DNA of 45,778 nucleotides, from positions 1-45,778 of IMG/VR virus record IMGVR_UViG_3300045286_000026, one strand, 5' to 3'. The notes under the pieces are model-generated. The model was not told where the DNA came from. It ran no database searches and saw only the letters and a program-made list of their open reading frames with translations. The DNA is from a virus. Position numbers and translations under genes: made by a program. Shown one piece after another: positions 2,196 to 45,409 of the stretch (the stretch's first letter is position 1; each line of letters begins with the position of its first letter).

Positions 2196-4891
2196 CGAGG
2201 TTTCTTCGGAATAGGCTTAATTAAATACTCATGGCCTGGATTGGACTTAGACATAAACCGTCCTGTGCCAGGATCAAACTCCACATCATCTTCGGGTAGA
2301 GTTTCATAATTATTGGCGCGAAGATGATGATTTAATTCAGCTATGGCTCGTGGAAAATCAAGCCACCCTTGACTGCCTGAATCGGACATAAATTTATGTG
2401 CAAACGTTTGCATACTTGTTTGTGGAATCGTAACTTGTCCGTTCTCAAAAATGGCAGGGTACTCATCCCACTTCTCTCCAGAGCGATCAGACGGTAGTTT
2501 AACTCGGGTTTCATTGCGATAAAGCGGCTCTTGTAAGCCAGAGAGTTTCCTTATTATGTCCGGGCGTTCTTCAGGTGTAGCTTGTTTCCATGCTTCTATA
2601 CCTGCTAAGTCTTTCAGACTAGGTTGCGTCCCTGGATGAGTGGCTCGTGCAGCTATATAAGCTTGTGCACTCTCAGGAGTTAAAGGTAAGTTATGTTGGG
2701 CTCCCCATTTCCTGCCTTCGAAGGTTGAGTTTCCACCAGCTGGGTTGCCGTAGTATTGAGACTCAGCAGACTCAGGGGTAAGGTTGTACTTTCCAGCTCT
2801 GAGACCTGCTTCGATCCTATCAATACCAGCAGGGTTAGCATCGGACTGAATCATATTCTGACGATTGAGTCCGAAGCGAAGGGTATTGCCTTCACGTTGA
2901 AATTCTGGGTTGTAGTTAATCGGCTCAGGGGCAGTTGCTGCTGATTGAGCTACTGGTTGAGCTACTGGTTGAGCTGCTGGTTGAGCCACGGGTGCAGACT
3001 GCGATAAACCAAAACGAGCCGCCATCGCATTAAATAGAGGTCGTTGCGTATCCAGGTTTTTACCTAGCTGTTCAAGTGTGGTTAGCTCTTCAGGTTCAAC
3101 TCTAGCATTTGATGCCCCCCTAGCACTTTTCTGAGCTTCTAACTTTGGGTCATAAGGAATAGCATCCTGCGGATAAAGTTGGTATCCGCCATTTGCATAC
3201 CCAGGCACTACTCTTCCCAATCCATACCCCGTCGTCAATAACGGTTCGCTACCACGTTTCTTGGAAGCATAAGATTGCCAAGACATAGGAGACGTAACAG
3301 GGTTGTAAGGACTTTGATCATTGTTTTGGAAATCTTGTACCGCAGAGTCACCAATCAGACTTCGTACACCTAAGCCATTGCCAATCAGTCCACGCACTGT
3401 TCCATCTTGAGGGCTTGCGAACCCAGAAGGGTTCGTTACGTTTTGTTCCAGACGAGGTGCATCCCCACGAGCACCGGTATAGGAAGTATCTCCCATCGAA
3501 ATCTTGTAAGCGGAGTTTGGGCCTACTCCATAATAATTCAGAAAGTCAGGAGAAATCTGCCCACCACGAGTCATCTCAGGTTGAGTTGTATTCGCCAAGA
3601 TAGCAGCGTTTTTTGCAGACTGATTAGCATCCCATCCCGGAGACGTAGACAAACCTGATTGAGTAGATTGTGACGCTATAGAACTACTACGCGGTGCAAC
3701 AATGTTATCAATTGCTTTAGGTACGTTAGTATCCATAGCTTTGCTTACAGGGTCGTCAGTACCATACGCATATCCCGGCACAACCCCTCCCATTTTCAAC
3801 CCGAATGATCGGGGCGGTTGTACACCCCCTGCGCTGATTCGGGGGGTAGGAAGCGACGTGTACGAAGGCATGACAGGCGAAGTCTGGGACGTGCCGATGG
3901 GCTGCATAGTCGGAGTGACATACATGCCATTAGCACCCCCTACAGCCCTGTTGACGGCTTCGTCTATCTGATTCGTGCGGTTACGAATCGCATCGAATCC
4001 TCTGTTGGGTGTCGGCGCAGGTGCGCGAACAGGTGTAGCTGCGGGTGCGGGCGTAGGTTCAGGAGGCGGAGAAGCATGGCCTGACTGCAACTCAATCATG
4101 CGTTTCTTGGTCTCGACGATATTCTTATTGGTTCCTAAAACGCCGCCTGTCATATCCCCCAGTTTGTCTCGCCAGTTCAGTTCTACTCCGCCACCATCAG
4201 CGTAGCCAGCCGCTTTATCGATCTGACTATCGATCTGTTTGGTACGATCCAGGTAGAGACCCAAGCCTTTACGAGGTTCATATGCAGGTGCCAATGTTGG
4301 TGTTGGCTGAGAAGTGGGGGGTGCTGCTTCGGGTTCATTCTTCAGCTCTGCACCACGTTGCAGCTCCATGGAACGTTTCTTGGTCTCGACAATATTCTTG
4401 TTGGTGCCCAATACACCGCCAGTTAAATCACCTAACTTATCTTTCCATGATAGTTCGATCTTACCGCCGTCAGCGTAGCCAGGACGTTTTAGCCCTCCTA
4501 AATTTTCAGGAGCCTTCATTCCTGCGCCTGCTTGCGCTCCAGTTTGGTATGGAACCTGACTATAGTCGAGGGAACTGGGAGATTCTCCCATCATTTCGTC
4601 GTACGAATCTGTCAGAGACTTCCGAGCATTAAGTTTCTCGGTAGGTTTTGTAAGTTCTCCAGCCTTATTAAGAGCCGGCGCACGAGAAGGGGCGCCCCCT
4701 TTAGCATACCCAGGACGTCCCAGTTCAGCATACCGCAGCCCCAGTTCGTTAAGTTTGTTTAGAGTAGGCAGTCCAGCCAGGGCCACAGCGTGTTTGTTCA
4801 GAACAACTTCGCCAGGAGTCAGCATAGCCGGAACGGTATCGGAAGGTGCCGGAGGATAGACCGGGCCGGGTTTTAGATTCTGTTGAGCCAT
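2192..4891 (-). CDS. Low-complexity virion protein with repeated PGYAxGG motifs
   Basis: The protein has 899 residues. The N terminus contains SDTVPAMLTPGEVVLNKHAV (residues 17-36), a TPGE(V/F)VLNK motif that recurs in phage virion and tail-associated proteins. A PGYAxGG-like motif occurs five times (around 59, 136, 228 and twice later), typically in Pro/Gln-rich linkers. A segment of about 42 residues is duplicated (residues 138-179 and 228-271, both containing DKLGD, TGGVLGTNKNIVETKKR and ELQ). The DNA copies have diverged mostly at synonymous sites, so the duplication is old and under selection. The C-terminal third is less repetitive and probably globular. The gene is coupled by ATGA to the next gene and starts one base inside the ferritin gene's stop. 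A structural role is inferred; the exact function is unknown. Confidence 0.8.
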   Translation of the reverse strand: MAQQNLKPGPVYPPAPSDTVPAMLTPGEVVLNKHAVALAGLPTLNKLNELGLRYAELGRPGYAKGGAPSRAPALNKAGELTKPTEKLNARKSLTDSYDEMMGESPSSLDYSQVPYQTGAQAGAGMKAPENLGGLKRPGYADGGKIELSWKDKLGDLTGGVLGTNKNIVETKKRSMELQRGAELKNEPEAAPPTSQPTPTLAPAYEPRKGLGLYLDRTKQIDSQIDKAAGYADGGGVELNWRDKLGDMTGGVLGTNKNIVETKKRMIELQSGHASPPPEPTPAPAATPVRAPAPTPNRGFDAIRNRTNQIDEAVNRAVGGANGMYVTPTMQPIGTSQTSPVMPSYTSLPTPRISAGGVQPPRSFGLKMGGVVPGYAYGTDDPVSKAMDTNVPKAIDNIVAPRSSSIASQSTQSGLSTSPGWDANQSAKNAAILANTTQPEMTRGGQISPDFLNYYGVGPNSAYKISMGDTSYTGARGDAPRLEQNVTNPSGFASPQDGTVRGLIGNGLGVRSLIGDSAVQDFQNNDQSPYNPVTSPMSWQSYASKKRGSEPLLTTGYGLGRVVPGYANGGYQLYPQDAIPYDPKLEAQKSARGASNARVEPEELTTLEQLGKNLDTQRPLFNAMAARFGLSQSAPVAQPAAQPVAQPVAQSAATAPEPINYNPEFQREGNTLRFGLNRQNMIQSDANPAGIDRIEAGLRAGKYNLTPESAESQYYGNPAGGNSTFEGRKWGAQHNLPLTPESAQAYIAARATHPGTQPSLKDLAGIEAWKQATPEERPDIIRKLSGLQEPLYRNETRVKLPSDRSGEKWDEYPAIFENGQVTIPQTSMQTFAHKFMSDSGSQGWLDFPRAIAELNHHLRANNYETLPEDDVEFDPGTGRFMSKSNPGHEYLIKPIPKKPR

Positions 4892-24061: not shown

Positions 24062-25838
24062 GGGCTAATGGATCGATAACTTGGTTACGAATGGCTTGTT
24101 CCTGATCCACGATGATGTCATCGCCAAGTTCAAGTACACGAACACGCTGTTTGTTCAATTCGTAGCGGTTAATAAACGGCTGATCGAACTGATTCATCGT
24201 GCTGTTAGCAAACTGTTCGAGATTCTGCGCTCTGACTTCCCTAGCTACGAGGCTGGACGTTCCCTTAACCACGACATTGAAATCTCCTTTGATATCAGGT
24301 TTAGGATTAAACTGCATGTTCCAGTGATACATAGCAGTCAGGAAAGGACGCATCACGTCGTCGTCCAAACTAAACAATTGATCTTTGAACGTGATCTGTG
24401 CAGCCGACATCAACATGGATAGTCCGCCTACAGTTCGGCCTACGGAACCTTTGCTGGTTGCTTCGCCATGCATGTAACTGGGAATGGTCGCTTCATGGAT
24501 GTTGTTCATGAAATACTGCGACATGCTGAGGTATTCTTGAGTGAACGATCCCATGTTCAGAGTTCGGATAGCGGGGTGCTGCGCTTCGACCCCAACTCCA
24601 GACCGTTGCCAAACTCGGAATGGATAAACTGCACGAGGGTCTTCATCCGGGTGCAACAAATCAATGTTGACCTCAACTTGAGGGCCAGCGCAAATAGCAG
24701 CGTTGTCCATCATGGCGCGGGTTGAAGCATTCAACCCTTTCTGATCATCACGCATCACAGAAGCGATGCCTTCGCCGAAAATGGAAGTCTCATCCTTGTC
24801 GTAATAATAAGCGTAGTAAGGAAGTGACACTCCTTCTATAGGCTGCAATTCTGCCTTAATGACATTGTCGCCCAGAAGCCACACATTTCCCCAGAACTCA
24901 GCCAGCTCAGTTCCTACCATTTCCCTATCGAACCCCAAGTCTACTAAATCATCCTGAGATAAAATGCCCCAATACTCCATAACTTCGTAACGTTTGGATT
25001 TAGGCGCCGCAGCAGAGATATTCCACCCCAAACGGCGCAACTCAGTCTCCCAGAACATTAGCGCTACATCGCCTTCAGCGTGTTCGATCAGATATTTCCG
25101 AATTACATCCCCGCGGAAATCAGGCCGGTCGGCCAGTTCAAGTACTTGGTGACGTGGCATGATGTCACGCTCATAAACAAAACGAGCGTCACGAAAAGTA
25201 GTAGCCGTAGTATCCGGATAAACATTCCAGAGAGGGACCGATTCTATAAAAGGAGTTAACGTAGGTGCTTCTGTCAAATACCAGTTAGCGTCCGGATTCA
25301 ATTTCCATATCTTACGTTCGGCGGTATTTACCAGAGGGCCTTTCATGACTCCAGTGCCGAACAAATTTCCACTATGAATCACGTCCTTCATGATCTTGCG
25401 ATAACGTACTTCCGCCAATTGATCCTGAATTTCACGCTCCATATTGACGGCTGCGACATTGGCTTCTCGCGTCAACAACTCATTTACTTCGTCGGAAGTA
25501 GGCGGACGTTGTAACGCCATCTGTAACTGCATAACGGCCATCGGCGATACTTGCATATCGGGATTTGGCGTAGGTTCAATATGCCAGTTGTCTTCTGAGC
25601 CGGCAGGAAAAACCAAGTCCATTAACCGGGAATCAGCAGACTTTACTTTGATGCGAGTCATGCGCGTAAAGGTGCGCGACCGCTTAATATCCATACGCGC
25701 TACTTCTTCAGGGTCATACACTCCTTTGTATTGACGAAGGTCACGTAGCCAGCGATCTTCCACTTCGATTCGCTCTCCACGTACACGATTAAATTGAGTA
25801 CGAAGTTTAGAACCTAAAGTAGTTGAAATATTAGTCAT
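23949..25838 (-). CDS. Portal (head-to-tail connector) protein
   Basis: The protein has 629 residues. The start is ATG 25838 in a TGATG overlap with the terminase gene. It contains RWLRDLRQYKGVYDPEE, the KSADSRLMDLVFPAGSEDNW region typical of the clip/wing domains, MKDVIHSGNLFGTGVMKGP and GPQVEVNIDLLHPDEDPRAV. A portal ring (12 copies) sits at one capsid vertex and conducts DNA. Location next to terminase and scaffold genes supports this. Confidence 0.9.
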   Translation of the reverse strand: MTNISTTLGSKLRTQFNRVRGERIEVEDRWLRDLRQYKGVYDPEEVARMDIKRSRTFTRMTRIKVKSADSRLMDLVFPAGSEDNWHIEPTPNPDMQVSPMAVMQLQMALQRPPTSDEVNELLTREANVAAVNMEREIQDQLAEVRYRKIMKDVIHSGNLFGTGVMKGPLVNTAERKIWKLNPDANWYLTEAPTLTPFIESVPLWNVYPDTTATTFRDARFVYERDIMPRHQVLELADRPDFRGDVIRKYLIEHAEGDVALMFWETELRRLGWNISAAAPKSKRYEVMEYWGILSQDDLVDLGFDREMVGTELAEFWGNVWLLGDNVIKAELQPIEGVSLPYYAYYYDKDETSIFGEGIASVMRDDQKGLNASTRAMMDNAAICAGPQVEVNIDLLHPDEDPRAVYPFRVWQRSGVGVEAQHPAIRTLNMGSFTQEYLSMSQYFMNNIHEATIPSYMHGEATSKGSVGRTVGGLSMLMSAAQITFKDQLFSLDDDVMRPFLTAMYHWNMQFNPKPDIKGDFNVVVKGTSSLVAREVRAQNLEQFANSTMNQFDQPFINRYELNKQRVRVLELGDDIIVDQEQAIRNQVIDPLAHAAIHQQTGSTAKDTGVPPVGFNTGNASLPEPAGFAD

Positions 25839-28342
25839 CAATAGCCTGCGGCTGATGCTGGAGTGTATCGTTGCATCCGATTAATTTTTGGTTTACTATC
25901 GTGTTGATTAGGTCTTGCAATATGAAGAGCAATATATTGGCAACTTTCAGCCACGTGACTGCTTTTTGTCTTATCAGGCACGTCTCGATACCGATCTTCG
26001 CCAGGTACTTGCACACGTTTGAACCCATAGTCTCCATTCATTGCTTTGCGAAGTACCTTGCAAGTTGGAGACATCAGAAACGCCGGTTCGCCCCCGACTA
26101 ATCGACTCAGAAAACTCGCCACAGCTTCGCGTCGTGCCGTAAAGTTGTTCGTCCCAACAGTTGAGGGGTTCAATCCTTTCTGTTTCAAAATCTGTCGACA
26201 TGTCACTTCATCTGCTTGCGAGCGTTGAACACCTGCCGGATCATGAAGTGAAATAATCTTGTAGCCGGGATACTTCAGAGCTAACAAAGGTTTGAGCTGA
26301 CCATCGATGAACTGCACCAATCCTTGTCCTTCCCTAGCATCGAAAGAAGTCACTTCGTCCAAAATAATCCACTGCCCGCGAGGAGTGATCTGCGTAATTG
26401 TACAAGCTGGATCGAGACCAAAATCGAACCCTAATAGTAATGGAAGGGCTCTGTTGGCTATCAACGGAGTTGATGCGACATGTAGGGTATCATTGAATTC
26501 CGGATATACCGGGCGTCCTCCCTGCACATTACCGTACTGCGCTTCTACGTTAACTTTAACCCAATCATTGGATTTACCAGCAACGGACCGCAAATAATAT
26601 TGCCGTCCGCGCATAATTCGGTCAGGGTGATTCAATGGGAATGCTTTAGTTTCAGGAGTCTGATTGAGGTTATTCAGATTCTCCGCTGCTGCGCTCAAAG
26701 CAGAAGCCTGTCTGAAGAACTCAAAGTTCTCAGGCTTTTCCTCTTCCGCCAGGCGATACCACCAATGATCGTCGGACGGAGGGTTCGTATCCATGATGAC
26801 TCCGCTCCATCGAGTCGACTCAGGATAACGACCTACTCGGATCGTAGACATGTCCAATACTTCCTTGGGTAGTTCTCTGGCTTCATTCAACCAGATCAAA
26901 GTCGCTTCGCATCCGAGAAGCTTCTTTACATCGTCTGGGCGTTCCAAAGCCAGGAACCACATATCCAATTCACAATCACGGGCTAACTTAATACGATGCC
27001 GGATCGGGGCATCCCACTTCATCTTCCCAAACACTTTCTCCGGAAACCAATGTAACCAGGTTTCGATGGTTGTGGATTTAAGTTCAGGATATGAGTTAGA
27101 AGTCCAATGAGTTTTTCCATTACGACGAACGTAAATCACGTGTGTTGGAACTTCCACGCAATAAACTTCTCCATCATAGGGCTGCGTATGCCACCCTCTA
27201 TATTGCGTATTACTGTCTGTGGCTTTCTGTAACTTAGGGGCGTATTTTTTTGGCGAAACAAATGTTAACGTGTACTCAATCGCAGTAGGTGCAGTTACAG
27301 TTCCGTTTATAACCATTCGTTGCCCAATTCGATTTCGGCTAGAAAGATTTGCAACTAACCCGGCTTTCAAGGCAATTTCTTGCAAATCATCTGCTAGCTG
27401 CTTAGAACTTGTGTACGCAGTTTGTGTAATACTGTCTTTGCGCTTGTGTCCATCTCCTGCGCAAAAACCCTTTATAAACGCTTGTAAGTACGCAGATGGC
27501 GCTTGTTTTACCCAAAACGGAAGTTGTTTTGTTGTAGCTCCCTTATGCGTTTCAAGCAATTTAAATAATCGATTTCCTATATGGGATGGATCGTCCTGCC
27601 TACAAAGTTTTACACAAAAATTAACTCTATCCCCCCTGCGTGTTTCGTAATAAGGGACTTCCATAGAATCGAACAGCTCTCTTGTATACTCAACTCCATC
27701 TGACTTACATTGAGTTATAGTTAGATGGCGACGTCCTTGCATATAAGTTCCGACATGTCCTTCTGCAAACCAAAGGCCCAACCACTCAAAAAACTTTTCA
27801 GGAAGCTCTAATTCTTGTCCTTCCCATAAAGCATCTCGCTTTACTCGGAAATCACTTTTTCCGTAAATGTCGCAAGCGCGCTCCAGAGAATATTCACCCC
27901 AAACTTTCTTCCGAGTAGTGGCGTGGCTAACGTACAATTTATGCGTAGGAGTTACTAAGAAATCAATCCCTTCGCCTTCAAAACCAATCAGATCTCCTTG
28001 ATATGGTGCGGAATAATAAAACGTAGGGAGGGTAAAAACTAATTTTCCCTCTTGTAACATCGCGACTTTATCGGTCTCTTGAAGGTTTTTAAATAAAACC
28101 CATCCACGATATTCGGTGAGAATTTCTGTTTGATCGTCAAAGCATTGACGTATGGCCACGGCGCGGGTGCGTCTAACCCCATCAAGGACACTCGGCAATT
28201 GCTCCAGAGCGCGCATTGCGATCTCCATGCAACAGGCAACTGATTTGCCTGAGCCCATGGGACCCATAATGCCGCGAACAAAAGTATCCGAGTTATGAAA
28301 TTGCTCAGTAACTGCGCCGGCAGGTACATAGACAACACTCAT
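25838..28342 (-). CDS. Terminase large subunit interrupted by a LAGLIDADG intein
   Basis: The ORF has 834 residues; 350 are intein. The ATPase Walker A is GPMGSGKS (27-34). After splicing, TRAVAIRQ joins SYPELKSTTIETWLHW. Walker B-like TLIWLNEARE lies at 481-490, and VIMDTNPP at 515-522 is the coupling motif. The nuclease domain has GFDFGLDPAC (Asp640) and ISLHDPAG (Asp701), acidic residues expected to bind metal. The enzyme packages DNA into the head and cuts it. ATG at 28342 overlaps the stop of the small-subunit gene (ATGA). The intein lies about 32 residues after the Walker A. Confidence 0.92.
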   Translation of the reverse strand: MSVVYVPAGAVTEQFHNSDTFVRGIMGPMGSGKSVACCMEIAMRALEQLPSVLDGVRRTRAVAIRQCFDDQTEILTEYRGWVLFKNLQETDKVAMLQEGKLVFTLPTFYYSAPYQGDLIGFEGEGIDFLVTPTHKLYVSHATTRKKVWGEYSLERACDIYGKSDFRVKRDALWEGQELELPEKFFEWLGLWFAEGHVGTYMQGRRHLTITQCKSDGVEYTRELFDSMEVPYYETRRGDRVNFCVKLCRQDDPSHIGNRLFKLLETHKGATTKQLPFWVKQAPSAYLQAFIKGFCAGDGHKRKDSITQTAYTSSKQLADDLQEIALKAGLVANLSSRNRIGQRMVINGTVTAPTAIEYTLTFVSPKKYAPKLQKATDSNTQYRGWHTQPYDGEVYCVEVPTHVIYVRRNGKTHWTSNSYPELKSTTIETWLHWFPEKVFGKMKWDAPIRHRIKLARDCELDMWFLALERPDDVKKLLGCEATLIWLNEARELPKEVLDMSTIRVGRYPESTRWSGVIMDTNPPSDDHWWYRLAEEEKPENFEFFRQASALSAAAENLNNLNQTPETKAFPLNHPDRIMRGRQYYLRSVAGKSNDWVKVNVEAQYGNVQGGRPVYPEFNDTLHVASTPLIANRALPLLLGFDFGLDPACTITQITPRGQWIILDEVTSFDAREGQGLVQFIDGQLKPLLALKYPGYKIISLHDPAGVQRSQADEVTCRQILKQKGLNPSTVGTNNFTARREAVASFLSRLVGGEPAFLMSPTCKVLRKAMNGDYGFKRVQVPGEDRYRDVPDKTKSSHVAESCQYIALHIARPNQHDSKPKINRMQRYTPASAAGY
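27095..28144 (-). other. Intein in terminase (residues C67-N416) with LAGLIDADG homing endonuclease
   Basis: The intein begins at Cys67 (CFDDQTEILTEYRGW, block A) and ends at Asn416 before Ser417. Block B is LVTPTHKLYV (129-138, T-x-x-H). Two dodecapeptide-like motifs LGLWFAEGHV (188-197) and IKGFCAGDGHK (290-300) have acidic residues at Glu194 and Asp297 in the expected places, so the homing endonuclease is likely active. Block F is EVYCVEVPTHVIYVRRNG. The C-terminal junction is THWTSN-S: the penultimate residue is Ser instead of the usual His. Splicing should restore the terminase. Confidence 0.9.
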
Positions 28343-42828: not shown

Positions 42829-43248
42829 ATGAACTCTAAAAGACTTGATCTTTTTATTGACTACACCATAGAGTGTGTCAGACGTTCAGAGTTAGACTCA
42901 TACTTCTTAGATACTTACCATCTCACTGATTTTGATCTTACCGAACCCATTCGCAGTAACTACACTTACGCTACAATGGAAACTCATTGTGGTATTCATC
43001 ATCCCTGCCGTATGTCATGGAGATATCCTATGCAAACCTTCGTTATCTCAACTGAAAATGGATGTGTCCGAACTAAGGAAGGACGCCTTCTGACATTCGA
43101 TACTAAGGAAGGTGCTAAGATATACGGAGATATCTTATTTAAAAAGAAAAATTTCTACGATATAATAGAACTGGATGACGAGAGCGTACAGGAGATGCAA
43201 CGTGCCTTACTACAACGAACCTCCCCCACTATGGGAACATCAACTTAA
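42829..43248 (+). CDS. Hypothetical protein upstream of helicase
   Basis: The protein has 139 residues. The first part is acidic and aromatic (FIDYTIECVRRSELDSYFLD), with HCGIHHPCRMSW in the middle, a His/Cys cluster that might bind a metal. Its last 47 bases overlap the helicase start in another frame. The function is unknown. Confidence 0.65.
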   Translation: MNSKRLDLFIDYTIECVRRSELDSYFLDTYHLTDFDLTEPIRSNYTYATMETHCGIHHPCRMSWRYPMQTFVISTENGCVRTKEGRLLTFDTKEGAKIYGDILFKKKNFYDIIELDDESVQEMQRALLQRTSPTMGTST

Positions 43249-45409
43249 AGACATTGAGTTCTGTAAATCAAACCCACTCGTATTTAATACTTCAGATTGC
43301 GGAACAGGGAAGACTCGGGTTTGTCTTGAACTCATCCGCCAACTAAAACTTCCAACGTTGGTTCTAGCTCCTAAGAGCATTCTTGCTCCAGCTTGGAGCG
43401 AAGATATCAATAAGTATACACCTGAACTGACTCACTCAGTTGCTTACGCACATAACCGCAAAGAATCTTTTCAACAAGAAAGTCAGGTTATCGTTACTAA
43501 TCATGACGCTGTTAAATATTTGGCAGAACATCCTGAACTTTGCACACAATTTAAAGATGGTCTACTCATAGTAGATGAATGCTTTGTTCGAGATACTCCT
43601 ATATCTACCCCACATGGTTTGGTGCCTATTCAAAAGCTAACTATTGGAGACTTAGTGTGTACTAGTAATGGGGTATATCCTATTACTAATACGTTTAAAT
43701 CTTCATCAACCAATTTAGTATCTTTGAGGCTATCAAATGGAAAACAATTTCGATGCACTAAAAACCACCCAATTGCTACCGACCTCGGATGGTTGCCCGC
43801 AGGTTCATGTGCCGGACGATATATCTTGGAAGACCGGGACTTGCGAGCGTTGCGGCGCTACATTCAAACGGCATTCGAGGTTCAATCCCAAATGTTATTG
43901 CTCAAAATCATGTTCGAGAAAAGCTTTATGGCAGAACGAACCTTTAAAGATGGCCGAAGCTATATCCAAAGCAGCAGAGAAACTACGAGGACGTTCTACA
44001 TGGAACAAAGGAATTTCTTGGTCCGAAGAGGTTCGAGAAAAATTATCAGTATCACGCAAAGGAATAGACCCATTTATCAATTCAACTCGGGGAGGGAATG
44101 GAAAAGGGATGTCTCCGATGGAGCAGAGGTTGTCAACAGTTTTACCCCCGCAGTTTATATGGAACCTACCTATACCTACTGGCCAACCACGGAACAGTGG
44201 ATATCCTACATGCTACAAACTGGATTTTGGAAACCCTATCTCAAAAATTGGCATAGAAGTAGATGGAATTTCACATCGTACTGTACTAGGACAGCAGAGA
44301 GATCAGAAGAAATTTACTTTTCTAACTTCACTAGGGTGGATTGTGTATCGAATATCCAACGACGAAGTGGCGAAGATGTTTGGAATTTAGAAGTCGATGG
44401 CCCACATAATTACATTGCAAATGGAATAGTAGTTCATAATTGTACAGCATTTAAGAACCCTAAAACGCAACGATCCAGTGCCTTAGACGCTATTCGCGAT
44501 CGTTTCGCTCGCGTCATTCTTATGTCAGGTACGCCTAATCCCAACGGTGTTTGTGATCTTTGGCATCAGTTGTATATACTCGACCGCGGCGCGCGGTTAG
44601 GGCGTAGCTTTTATAAATTCAGATCAGTGACGTGCACCCCCAGAAGCAGAGGAGCTTTCACTGAATGGGTGGAGAAGGAAGGGATATTGGATATCGTGGC
44701 TAGTCTGTTCGCTGACATCACAATACGTCACCGACTGGAAGATTGCATCGACCTCCCTGAGAACCACGTCTACACTACGGAAATTGAATTGCCGCCGGTG
44801 CTTCGTGAGCATTACAAAGCCATGAAAAAACGTGCAAGGCTGATATTCGAGAGTTCTACTGTCACCGCGGTCAATGCTGCGGCTCTCCTGCAAAAGCTTC
44901 TACAGGTGGCTTCCGGAGCGGTCTATGACGACTTCGGAGGGTACAAGCTGCTGGATTCTTCTCGCTACGATTACATCCTGGACCTGGTTGAGGAACGCCC
45001 CCACTCCTTGGTGGCTTTCAACTGGCACCATCAGCGAGATCAGTTGGTGGAGGGTGCCAAGAAACGGAAGCTGACGTATGGAGTGCTCGACAGCAGCGTG
45101 CCGATTCGTCTGCGCAACCTGGTGGTAGAAGATTTTCAGGAAGGAAAATTGCGAGTGTTGTTCGCGCATCCTCAGTCTGCTGGACATGGACTAACGTTGA
45201 CGAAAGCGACATCTACTATTTGGTCAAGCCCTACTTATAATCTGGAACACTTTGCACAGTTCAATCATAGGATATACAGAGGAGGTCAAACACAGAAGAC
45301 TGAAACTGTATTGGTTAGCGCCAAAGAGACTGCGGATGTACAAGCGTATGCTCAGTTGATACATAAGAACGTTAATATGGCATACCTGTTAGATATCTTA
45401 ACTTGCTAG
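43202..45409 (+). CDS. SNF2-type DNA helicase interrupted by an intein
   Basis: The ORF has 735 residues from GTG 43202 (AGGAG eight bases upstream; ATG 43175 is in frame but lies before that site). After splicing the enzyme has about 448 residues. Walker A is SDCGTGKT (31-38). The Walker B is split: VDE (124-126) and, after the intein, CTAFKNPKTQRSS, restoring 'VDECTAFKNP', typical of SNF2-like enzymes. ILMSGTPNPNG is motif III. The C-terminal lobe has LFAHPQSAGHGLTLTKATST and FAQFNHRIYRGGQTQKTETV (motifs V and VI). Remodelling or unwinding during phage replication is inferred. Confidence 0.9.
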   Translation: MPYYNEPPPLWEHQLKDIEFCKSNPLVFNTSDCGTGKTRVCLELIRQLKLPTLVLAPKSILAPAWSEDINKYTPELTHSVAYAHNRKESFQQESQVIVTNHDAVKYLAEHPELCTQFKDGLLIVDECFVRDTPISTPHGLVPIQKLTIGDLVCTSNGVYPITNTFKSSSTNLVSLRLSNGKQFRCTKNHPIATDLGWLPAGSCAGRYILEDRDLRALRRYIQTAFEVQSQMLLLKIMFEKSFMAERTFKDGRSYIQSSRETTRTFYMEQRNFLVRRGSRKIISITQRNRPIYQFNSGREWKRDVSDGAEVVNSFTPAVYMEPTYTYWPTTEQWISYMLQTGFWKPYLKNWHRSRWNFTSYCTRTAERSEEIYFSNFTRVDCVSNIQRRSGEDVWNLEVDGPHNYIANGIVVHNCTAFKNPKTQRSSALDAIRDRFARVILMSGTPNPNGVCDLWHQLYILDRGARLGRSFYKFRSVTCTPRSRGAFTEWVEKEGILDIVASLFADITIRHRLEDCIDLPENHVYTTEIELPPVLREHYKAMKKRARLIFESSTVTAVNAAALLQKLLQVASGAVYDDFGGYKLLDSSRYDYILDLVEERPHSLVAFNWHHQRDQLVEGAKKRKLTYGVLDSSVPIRLRNLVVEDFQEGKLRVLFAHPQSAGHGLTLTKATSTIWSSPTYNLEHFAQFNHRIYRGGQTQKTETVLVSAKETADVQAYAQLIHKNVNMAYLLDILTC
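43580..44440 (+). other. Intein in helicase Walker B (C127-N413)
   Basis: The intein is 287 residues and begins CFVRDTPISTPHGLVPIQ, followed by LTIGDLVCTSNG (block A). NHPIATDLGWLPAG is block B. It ends VWNLEVDGPHNYIANGIVVHN with the next residue Cys, the canonical VVHN-C junction (blocks F and G). It should splice itself out and restore Walker B. Between blocks B and F, about 43842-44340, this frame carries a stretch that reads like the shadow of a different gene (43737-44390 in the +1 frame) and has no stop. The in-frame linker has no recognisable homing endonuclease motif. Confidence 0.9.
43737..44390 (+). CDS. Vsr-like homing endonuclease gene in the +1 frame inside the intein
   Basis: ATG 43737 has GAGG seven bases upstream and the frame ends at TGA-type stop 44390, giving 217 residues. 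The first ~30 are the shadow of intein block B. Then comes a zinc ribbon (CERC, Cys36/Cys39, and CYCSKSC, Cys53-Cys59), a NUMOD3-like segment (GRSTWNKGISWSEEVREKLS) and, from about 128, a nuclease core: SPMEQRLSTVLPPQFIWNLP, KLDFGNPISKIGIEVDGISH, RDQKKFTFLTSLGWIVYRIS. The E-V-D-G-x-x-H part and the LDF-IEVDG layout fit the Vsr/EDxHD family. Homing endonucleases cut an intein-less allele so that the intein is copied there. Being a separate gene in another frame is the unusual part. Confidence 0.8.
   Translation: MENNFDALKTTQLLPTSDGCPQVHVPDDISWKTGTCERCGATFKRHSRFNPKCYCSKSCSRKALWQNEPLKMAEAISKAAEKLRGRSTWNKGISWSEEVREKLSVSRKGIDPFINSTRGGNGKGMSPMEQRLSTVLPPQFIWNLPIPTGQPRNSGYPTCYKLDFGNPISKIGIEVDGISHRTVLGQQRDQKKFTFLTSLGWIVYRISNDEVAKMFGI

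Follow-up and report, generated by a model that had tools for sequence, protein, structure and literature searches.

Textbook inteins carry their splicing and endonuclease domains on one in-frame polypeptide. A helicase gene in a 45,778-nt viral record (IMG/VR IMGVR_UViG_3300045286_000026; this whole stretch is hereafter called the window) raises the question of how an intein can hold an endonuclease that is read in a different frame. An earlier sequence-only reading had proposed that this endonuclease has its own Shine-Dalgarno (SD) sequence, ATG, and stop in the +1 frame inside the intein, and all three were confirmed: the 217-aa ORF runs from ATG to TAG (43737-44390, + strand), and the SD sequence GAGG (43726-43729) lies 7 nt before the ATG, in agreement with the SD enrichment among relatives described below. 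The ORF is wholly nested within the intein, and both frames are open across the entire 217-codon overlap. We consider a dual-coded mobile intein, with the endonuclease nested in the +1 frame, to be the best explanation of this locus (probability about 0.88).

The host ORF (43175-45409, + strand) encodes an SNF2/SF2-type helicase that contains a contiguous intein; position 43175 comes from a mechanical listing of ORFs, and the true helicase start may lie a few codons downstream. The N-extein (43175-43579) is of the SF2/SNF2 type, extends to Walker B (...LLIVDE), and matches Pfam SNF2-rel_dom and ResIII and PHROG 62 (DNA helicase). The C-extein (44441-45409; Helicase_C) starts with CTAFKN and contains helicase motifs III-VI, such that the insertion point is located in Walker B (LLIVDE|CTAFKN, or DE|C). 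The insert is absent from homologs with continuous exteins: the alignment runs unbroken through the junction in the intein-less relatives R4900a (DE|ATAFKNP) and phiA008 (DE|ITAYKSP), and phage phi674 lacks the insert of phi673. PADLOC matches correspond to a generic SNF2 helicase, and their reading as a defense system was rejected. Separately, the terminase large subunit gene (25838-28342, − strand) has a second, canonical intein at approximately 27100-28144 (AIRQ|CFDDQ...HWTSN|SYPEL), with a LAGLIDADG_3 domain in frame (E=8.7e-9); both intein designs are therefore present in one phage.

The helicase intein (43580-44440, + strand) is a contiguous ORF of 287 aa from Cys1 to Asn287, with matches to Pfam Intein_splicing (37 bits, which exceeds the curated cut-off when the intein is scanned alone), TIGR01443, and TIGR01445. 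Alignment identified block A (CFVRDTPISTPHG; 43580-43618) and block B (GKQFRCTKNHPIATD, with TxxH; 43736-43784), the latter overlapped by the endonuclease ATG, while blocks F and G (VWNLEVDGPHNYIANG, IVVHN; 44378-44440) were supported by TIGR01443 (E=6.8e-9). All residues of a class 1 intein are present in the window, namely, Cys1, the block B TxxH (CTKNH), VVHN, and the +1 Cys. In the AlphaFold model, the splicing domain (residues 1-90 and 251-287) has pLDDT >93, and residues 122-250, which are encoded by endonuclease DNA, are almost structureless (pLDDT ~48). The best Foldseek match of this model is the gp41-1 intein (6QAZ, E=3.8e-7), consistent with a HINT fold; the gp41-1 intein reportedly belongs to the fractured-gene set of Dassa et al. 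(2009). The possibility that the linker destroys folding, raised in the sequence-only reading, finds no support in this model, in which the linker is predicted to be a disordered region next to a confidently predicted splicing domain. The intein would be translated together with the helicase and then excise itself post-translationally by protein splicing.

The overprinted protein has an N-terminal zinc finger (C36, C39, C55, and C59; CxxC...CxxxC) followed by a DUF559/EDxHD nuclease domain (DUF559, E=2.3e-7). Among 70 aligned family members, all of which match DUF559, the zinc-finger cysteines are nearly invariant and E174, D176, H180, and D189 are invariant, the latter four being candidate counterparts of the named EDxHD catalytic positions. 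The endonuclease model has a pLDDT of 83.4, and its first-ranked Foldseek match is the catalytic domain of I-Bth0305I (3R3P; probability 1.00, with a modest E=0.012); a phmmer search against PDB returned chance zinc-site matches only. The protein had been described as zinc-finger/NUMOD/Vsr-like, and the zinc finger and the DUF559/EDxHD nuclease agree with that description, but NUMOD is not supported in the window protein, and Pfam NUMOD3 matches only one of the 70 relatives. The proposed placement exactly between blocks B and F also needs revision. The ATG lies in block B, the stop lies 12 nt inside block F, and the conserved C-terminal motif of the endonuclease overlaps the intein beta strand that precedes block F. 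The endonuclease would be expected to cleave an empty helicase allele in a site-specific manner.

An immediate concern is that a pair of sequencing or assembly indels may have shifted the reading frame of what is really an ordinary in-frame intein endonuclease, given that the window is a single IMG/VR record and that no near-identical relative was found. This was examined through related loci. A single-sequence IMG/VR scan gave no matches, but tblastn of the endonuclease against phage records matched 40 records, in which the family was confined to Vibrio, Pseudomonas, and Corynebacterium phages. All matches examined lie inside genes annotated as helicase, hypothetical protein, or similar, and every one of them is in the +1 frame within an intact intein-bearing ORF, as judged from coordinates and translation. 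Further loci came from alignment-based scans of IMG/VR and GTDB genomes. In total, 222 loci with 172 unique endonuclease DNAs were classified using custom profiles of the nuclease and of the N and C blocks of the intein. Among these 172, the endonuclease is in +1 of a complete intein in 132, in +2 in none, and in frame in two; two have a closed intein frame, and the rest are truncated or intein-less. The in-frame arrangement of canonical inteins is thus the exception among related inteins (L080 and L192; 132 of the 134 contiguous loci are in +1). Recurrence of the +1 relation in 132 complete unique loci, which include finished isolate genomes (e.g., Pseudomonas MR14, Vibrio CP-T1 and K391, and Corynebacterium phi673), excludes the indel pair that the sequence-only reading had named as a possible refutation. 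The separate start, stop, and SD sequence of the endonuclease and a shared 3′ motif that requires the +1 phase also speak against sequencing error, which we regard as having almost no chance of being correct.

At a threshold of 70% identity, the 132 dual-coded loci group into 105 clusters, and two further clusters also hold truncated copies. Cys1 is present in all 132, the HN end in 121, and the DE|C insertion site in 119; the +1 residue is Cys in 118, Ser in 13, and Thr in one. Of 52 host proteins scanned, 44 match Helicase_C, 40 ResIII, nine SNF2, and one UvrD. The loci come, among other sources, from Pseudomonas, Vibrio, and Corynebacterium phages and from contigs placed in Chloroflexota, Verrucomicrobiota, Myxococcota, Cyanobacteriota, Bacillota, Campylobacterota, and other groups. 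The overlap, measured from stop to stop, has a median of ~240 codons and reaches 476. Locus L197 (2122-3549) encodes a 476-codon multi-zinc-finger endonuclease in +1 that is fully nested in a 500-aa intein, with both frames open. These inteins probably represent a widespread and undescribed class of mobile elements, distributed over many bacterial phyla in phage and (pro)phage-like loci, locked in the +1 phase by shared motifs, and able to shift toward in-frame or fractured forms.

The intein frame could in principle be open merely as a by-product of the codon composition of the endonuclease, and for GC-rich members few stops are expected (1.3 in L059). We kept the endonuclease protein fixed, resampled synonymous codons according to extein usage, and counted stops in the intein frame. 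For the window, the expectation is 14.1 stops across the full length of the ORF, where none is present (P=1.6e-8); for the linker alone, it is 9.9 (P=4.7e-6). Selection for an open intein frame is strongly supported, and the earlier estimate that such a frame would occur by chance roughly once in several thousand was conservative. Across the 105 clusters (21,168 linker codons), there are no intein-frame stops compared to ~1003 expected; this zero is conditioned on the class definition, which required an open intein frame, with only two further two-block loci being closed. In contrast, the third, unused frame of the same clusters has 1297 stops (957 expected), and nine free-standing relatives have 8-39 stops each in the equivalent frame, near expectation; a tenth, truncated relative has two. 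An effect of codon composition is, in our judgment, as good as discarded.

The two frames differ in how they are constrained. Ten disjoint close pairs show purifying selection on the endonuclease frame (NN/SN=0.27, 95% interval 0.22-0.32) and near neutrality of the intein-frame linker (NN/NS=1.36, 1.01-1.75), with the 3′ motif and tail being underpowered in this comparison. This outcome of the dual-frame rate analysis suggested in the sequence-only reading, together with the absence of stops, implies that the intein frame of the linker is selected mostly for lack of stops. In the best explanation, protein information is carried by the endonuclease frame, and the intein-frame linker is mainly a stop-free disordered loop.

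The 3′ end of the overlap is different. At 44331-44360 (+ strand), one DNA stretch encodes the endonuclease segment LGWIVYRISN and, offset by one base, the intein beta strand RVDCVSNI; in the intein model, the beta strand E251-272 covers this double-coded region. Family-wide, the shared sequence encodes LGWxVLRFxN (G, W, and N invariant) in the endonuclease and RV[DE]SVE in the intein, such that both frames are constrained here. Codon analysis of 103 clusters found that synonymous endonuclease codons are skewed toward those giving intein Val (85 observed compared to 23 expected), Val/Ile (92 compared to 20), and Glu (64 compared to 8). These motifs can share nucleotides only in the +1 phase, which explains why the phase is always +1. 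Under the dual-coding explanation, the intein frame of the linker would be kept free of stops, and the shared motifs at the 3′ end would lock the phase.

How the endonuclease is produced allows two routes. Upstream of the zinc finger, SD matches of at least four bases were found at 60 of 131 endonuclease-frame ATGs among the relatives, compared to 6 of 59 in the third frame and 13 of 91 in the intein frame (p about 1e-6). This 3-4 times enrichment makes internal initiation the favored route, and the endonuclease of the window would accordingly be made as a separate protein starting at 43737. Alternatively, a real endonuclease may be made by programmed +1 frameshifting, as a fusion to the N-extein and the N-terminal part of the intein. 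The SD is weak or absent, and a clear SD+ATG is missing, in about half of the relatives, and 11 of the 105 clusters have no ATG before the zinc finger; these relatives may use other starts or be entered by a frameshift. In many loci, the endonuclease frame is closed by a stop shortly before the start (43725-43727 in the window), which would confine any frameshift to a narrow interval. Casual inspection of the loci showed no conserved slippery site. With this stop and the SD enrichment against it, frameshifting is an unlikely explanation, even if the least improbable of the alternatives considered here.

Evidence of mobility came from closely related phages. Apart from the insert, the helicases of the Corynebacterium phages phi673 (L238) and phi674 (L237) share 99% identity; in phi673, the site is occupied by an exact 906-bp insert of the dual-coded architecture, and in phi674 it is empty. 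The flanks differ by 17 SNPs in 1605 bases; seven of these fall in the first 78 bp downstream of the insert, and the 161 bp upstream of it are free of SNPs. The downstream tract begins at the +1 codon, where GTG (Val) in phi674 corresponds to TGT (Cys) in phi673. This pattern is the one expected of break repair with short co-conversion, indicating that the insertion in phi673 is probably recent and may have arisen by homing. Similarly, the element is found in Vibrio phage K391, while 234P10 has an empty site in a helicase that is 98.9% identical. According to the proposed mechanism, the nested EDxHD/Vsr-like endonuclease would drive the spread of the intein by cutting the Walker B codons of intein-less helicase genes; during repair, the intein and the endonuclease would be copied as one, along with the +1 Cys codon.

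The same Walker B site in four other Vibrio phages, K389 (L233), K453 (L235), PS65A.1 (L234), and 13VV501A (L236), is occupied by a different mini-intein of ~143-150 aa. The 450-bp inteins of K389 and K453 were considered as endonuclease-deleted forms of the K391 element; this was rejected, as they belong to a separate mini-intein lineage. PS65A.1 and 13VV501A have an additional large insert at the Walker A codons with an intein-like end (...GDFTVTHN).

It is also conceivable that the window holds a remnant, in which splicing has been lost or the endonuclease has degenerated, with the overprint as a short-lived relic. Locus L198, which has lost the middle of the endonuclease yet kept the intein frame, and the near neutrality of the intein-frame linker are compatible with this idea. 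Against it, the window retains all splicing residues and the invariant endonuclease residues (the zinc Cys, GGNG, E174, D176, H180, and D189), the endonuclease is under purifying selection across pairs, and the phi673 insertion appears recent; we consider a relic improbable. The L198 locus itself (2953-3258) is a deletion derivative with an intact frame and an intein of 200 aa.

The dual-coded intein had been proposed as a stage between a full intein and the fractured-gene arrangement. Two relatives, L158 (548-1525) and L189 (2754-3734), have retained both the intein blocks and the +1 relation, yet their intein frame contains 26 and 23 stops, respectively, including all three stop types. Their N-part ends after block B, and a possible C-part starts at or before the RVENIEV/RVESVEV strand; in sequence, both look like fractured genes. 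The window is different in that its helicase ORF is uninterrupted. In L080 and L192, the endonuclease is in frame within inteins of UvrD-like helicases (host type judged from sequence), and one of these two loci is on a contig of the archaeon Candidatus Methanosuratincola. Free-standing nuclease relatives without a surrounding intein were found at L029, L048, L058, L069, L142, L148, L166, L174, and L195. In a tree of the nuclease domain, free-standing and in-frame copies are scattered among the overprinted ones, although the tree, with 92 columns, is too poorly resolved to show a single origin or a direction of change. The two fractured-looking and two in-frame relatives suggest that transitions occur, in line with part of the proposal; the overprinted form, however, is a stable and widespread class rather than an isolated intermediate.

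Comparisons with known systems help to place this architecture. Like canonical inteins such as PI-SceI and the LAGLIDADG intein of the terminase gene, the helicase intein has a HINT domain that is interrupted between blocks B and F; unlike in those inteins, the endonuclease is out of the intein frame and absent from the spliced-out polypeptide. Fractured genes, split inteins, and Vsr-like free-standing homing endonucleases were reportedly described by Dassa and colleagues (2009; cited in PMC12350094). As in those fractured genes, a Vsr/EDxHD-type endonuclease is tied to a phage intein as a separate gene; there, the host gene and the intein are split into two ORFs, whereas one uninterrupted ORF overlaps the endonuclease gene in the window. 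I-Bth0305I is encoded by a group I intron. It shares the nuclease fold, the conserved E, D, H, and D, and the separate DNA-binding modules (PDB 3R3P; PMC3943268), but the window endonuclease is overprinted on an intein and has its zinc finger N-terminal to the nuclease. Homing endonuclease ORFs that overlap group I intron cores exist (PMC3984707), in which a separate endonuclease gene likewise overlaps functional sequence of the splicing element; the overlap partner there is a ribozyme, while the window has one set of bases coding for two proteins. The ShiLan insertion has an out-of-frame HNH endonuclease that its authors linked to no intein or intron, with no splicing activity and no SD detected (PMC11855218). 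It resembles the present case in that the insertion is open in the host frame while an endonuclease ORF occupies another frame, and in a sporadic distribution that implies homing; it differs in having an HNH nuclease and no splicing domain, whereas the window combines a DUF559/EDxHD nuclease with a complete HINT domain on the same DNA. With the phage-record matches restricted to three host genera, a survey of actinobacteriophages may have met few members of the family. In reviews, the endonucleases of inteins are presented as in-frame fusions (PMC3943268), and our full-text literature search, which was incomplete and may have missed an earlier mention, found no out-of-frame endonuclease within an intein.

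That the endonuclease is overprinted, selected, and Vsr-like is strongly supported by the sequences compared, and the overprinted design appears to be a stable, widespread kind of mobile intein. Such a large family would represent another stable solution for intein endonucleases and would rank among the larger conserved collections of long gene overlaps in phages. The endonuclease is missed by standard annotation; the isolate genomes examined list only the surrounding gene, named as a hypothetical protein or a putative helicase. Homing by a dual-coded intein could be tested directly with the phi673/phi674 pair, which grows on Corynebacterium glutamicum, and these naturally linker-tolerant inteins may interest protein engineers. 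The family is also relevant to possible conversions among free-standing endonucleases, full inteins, and split inteins or fractured genes.
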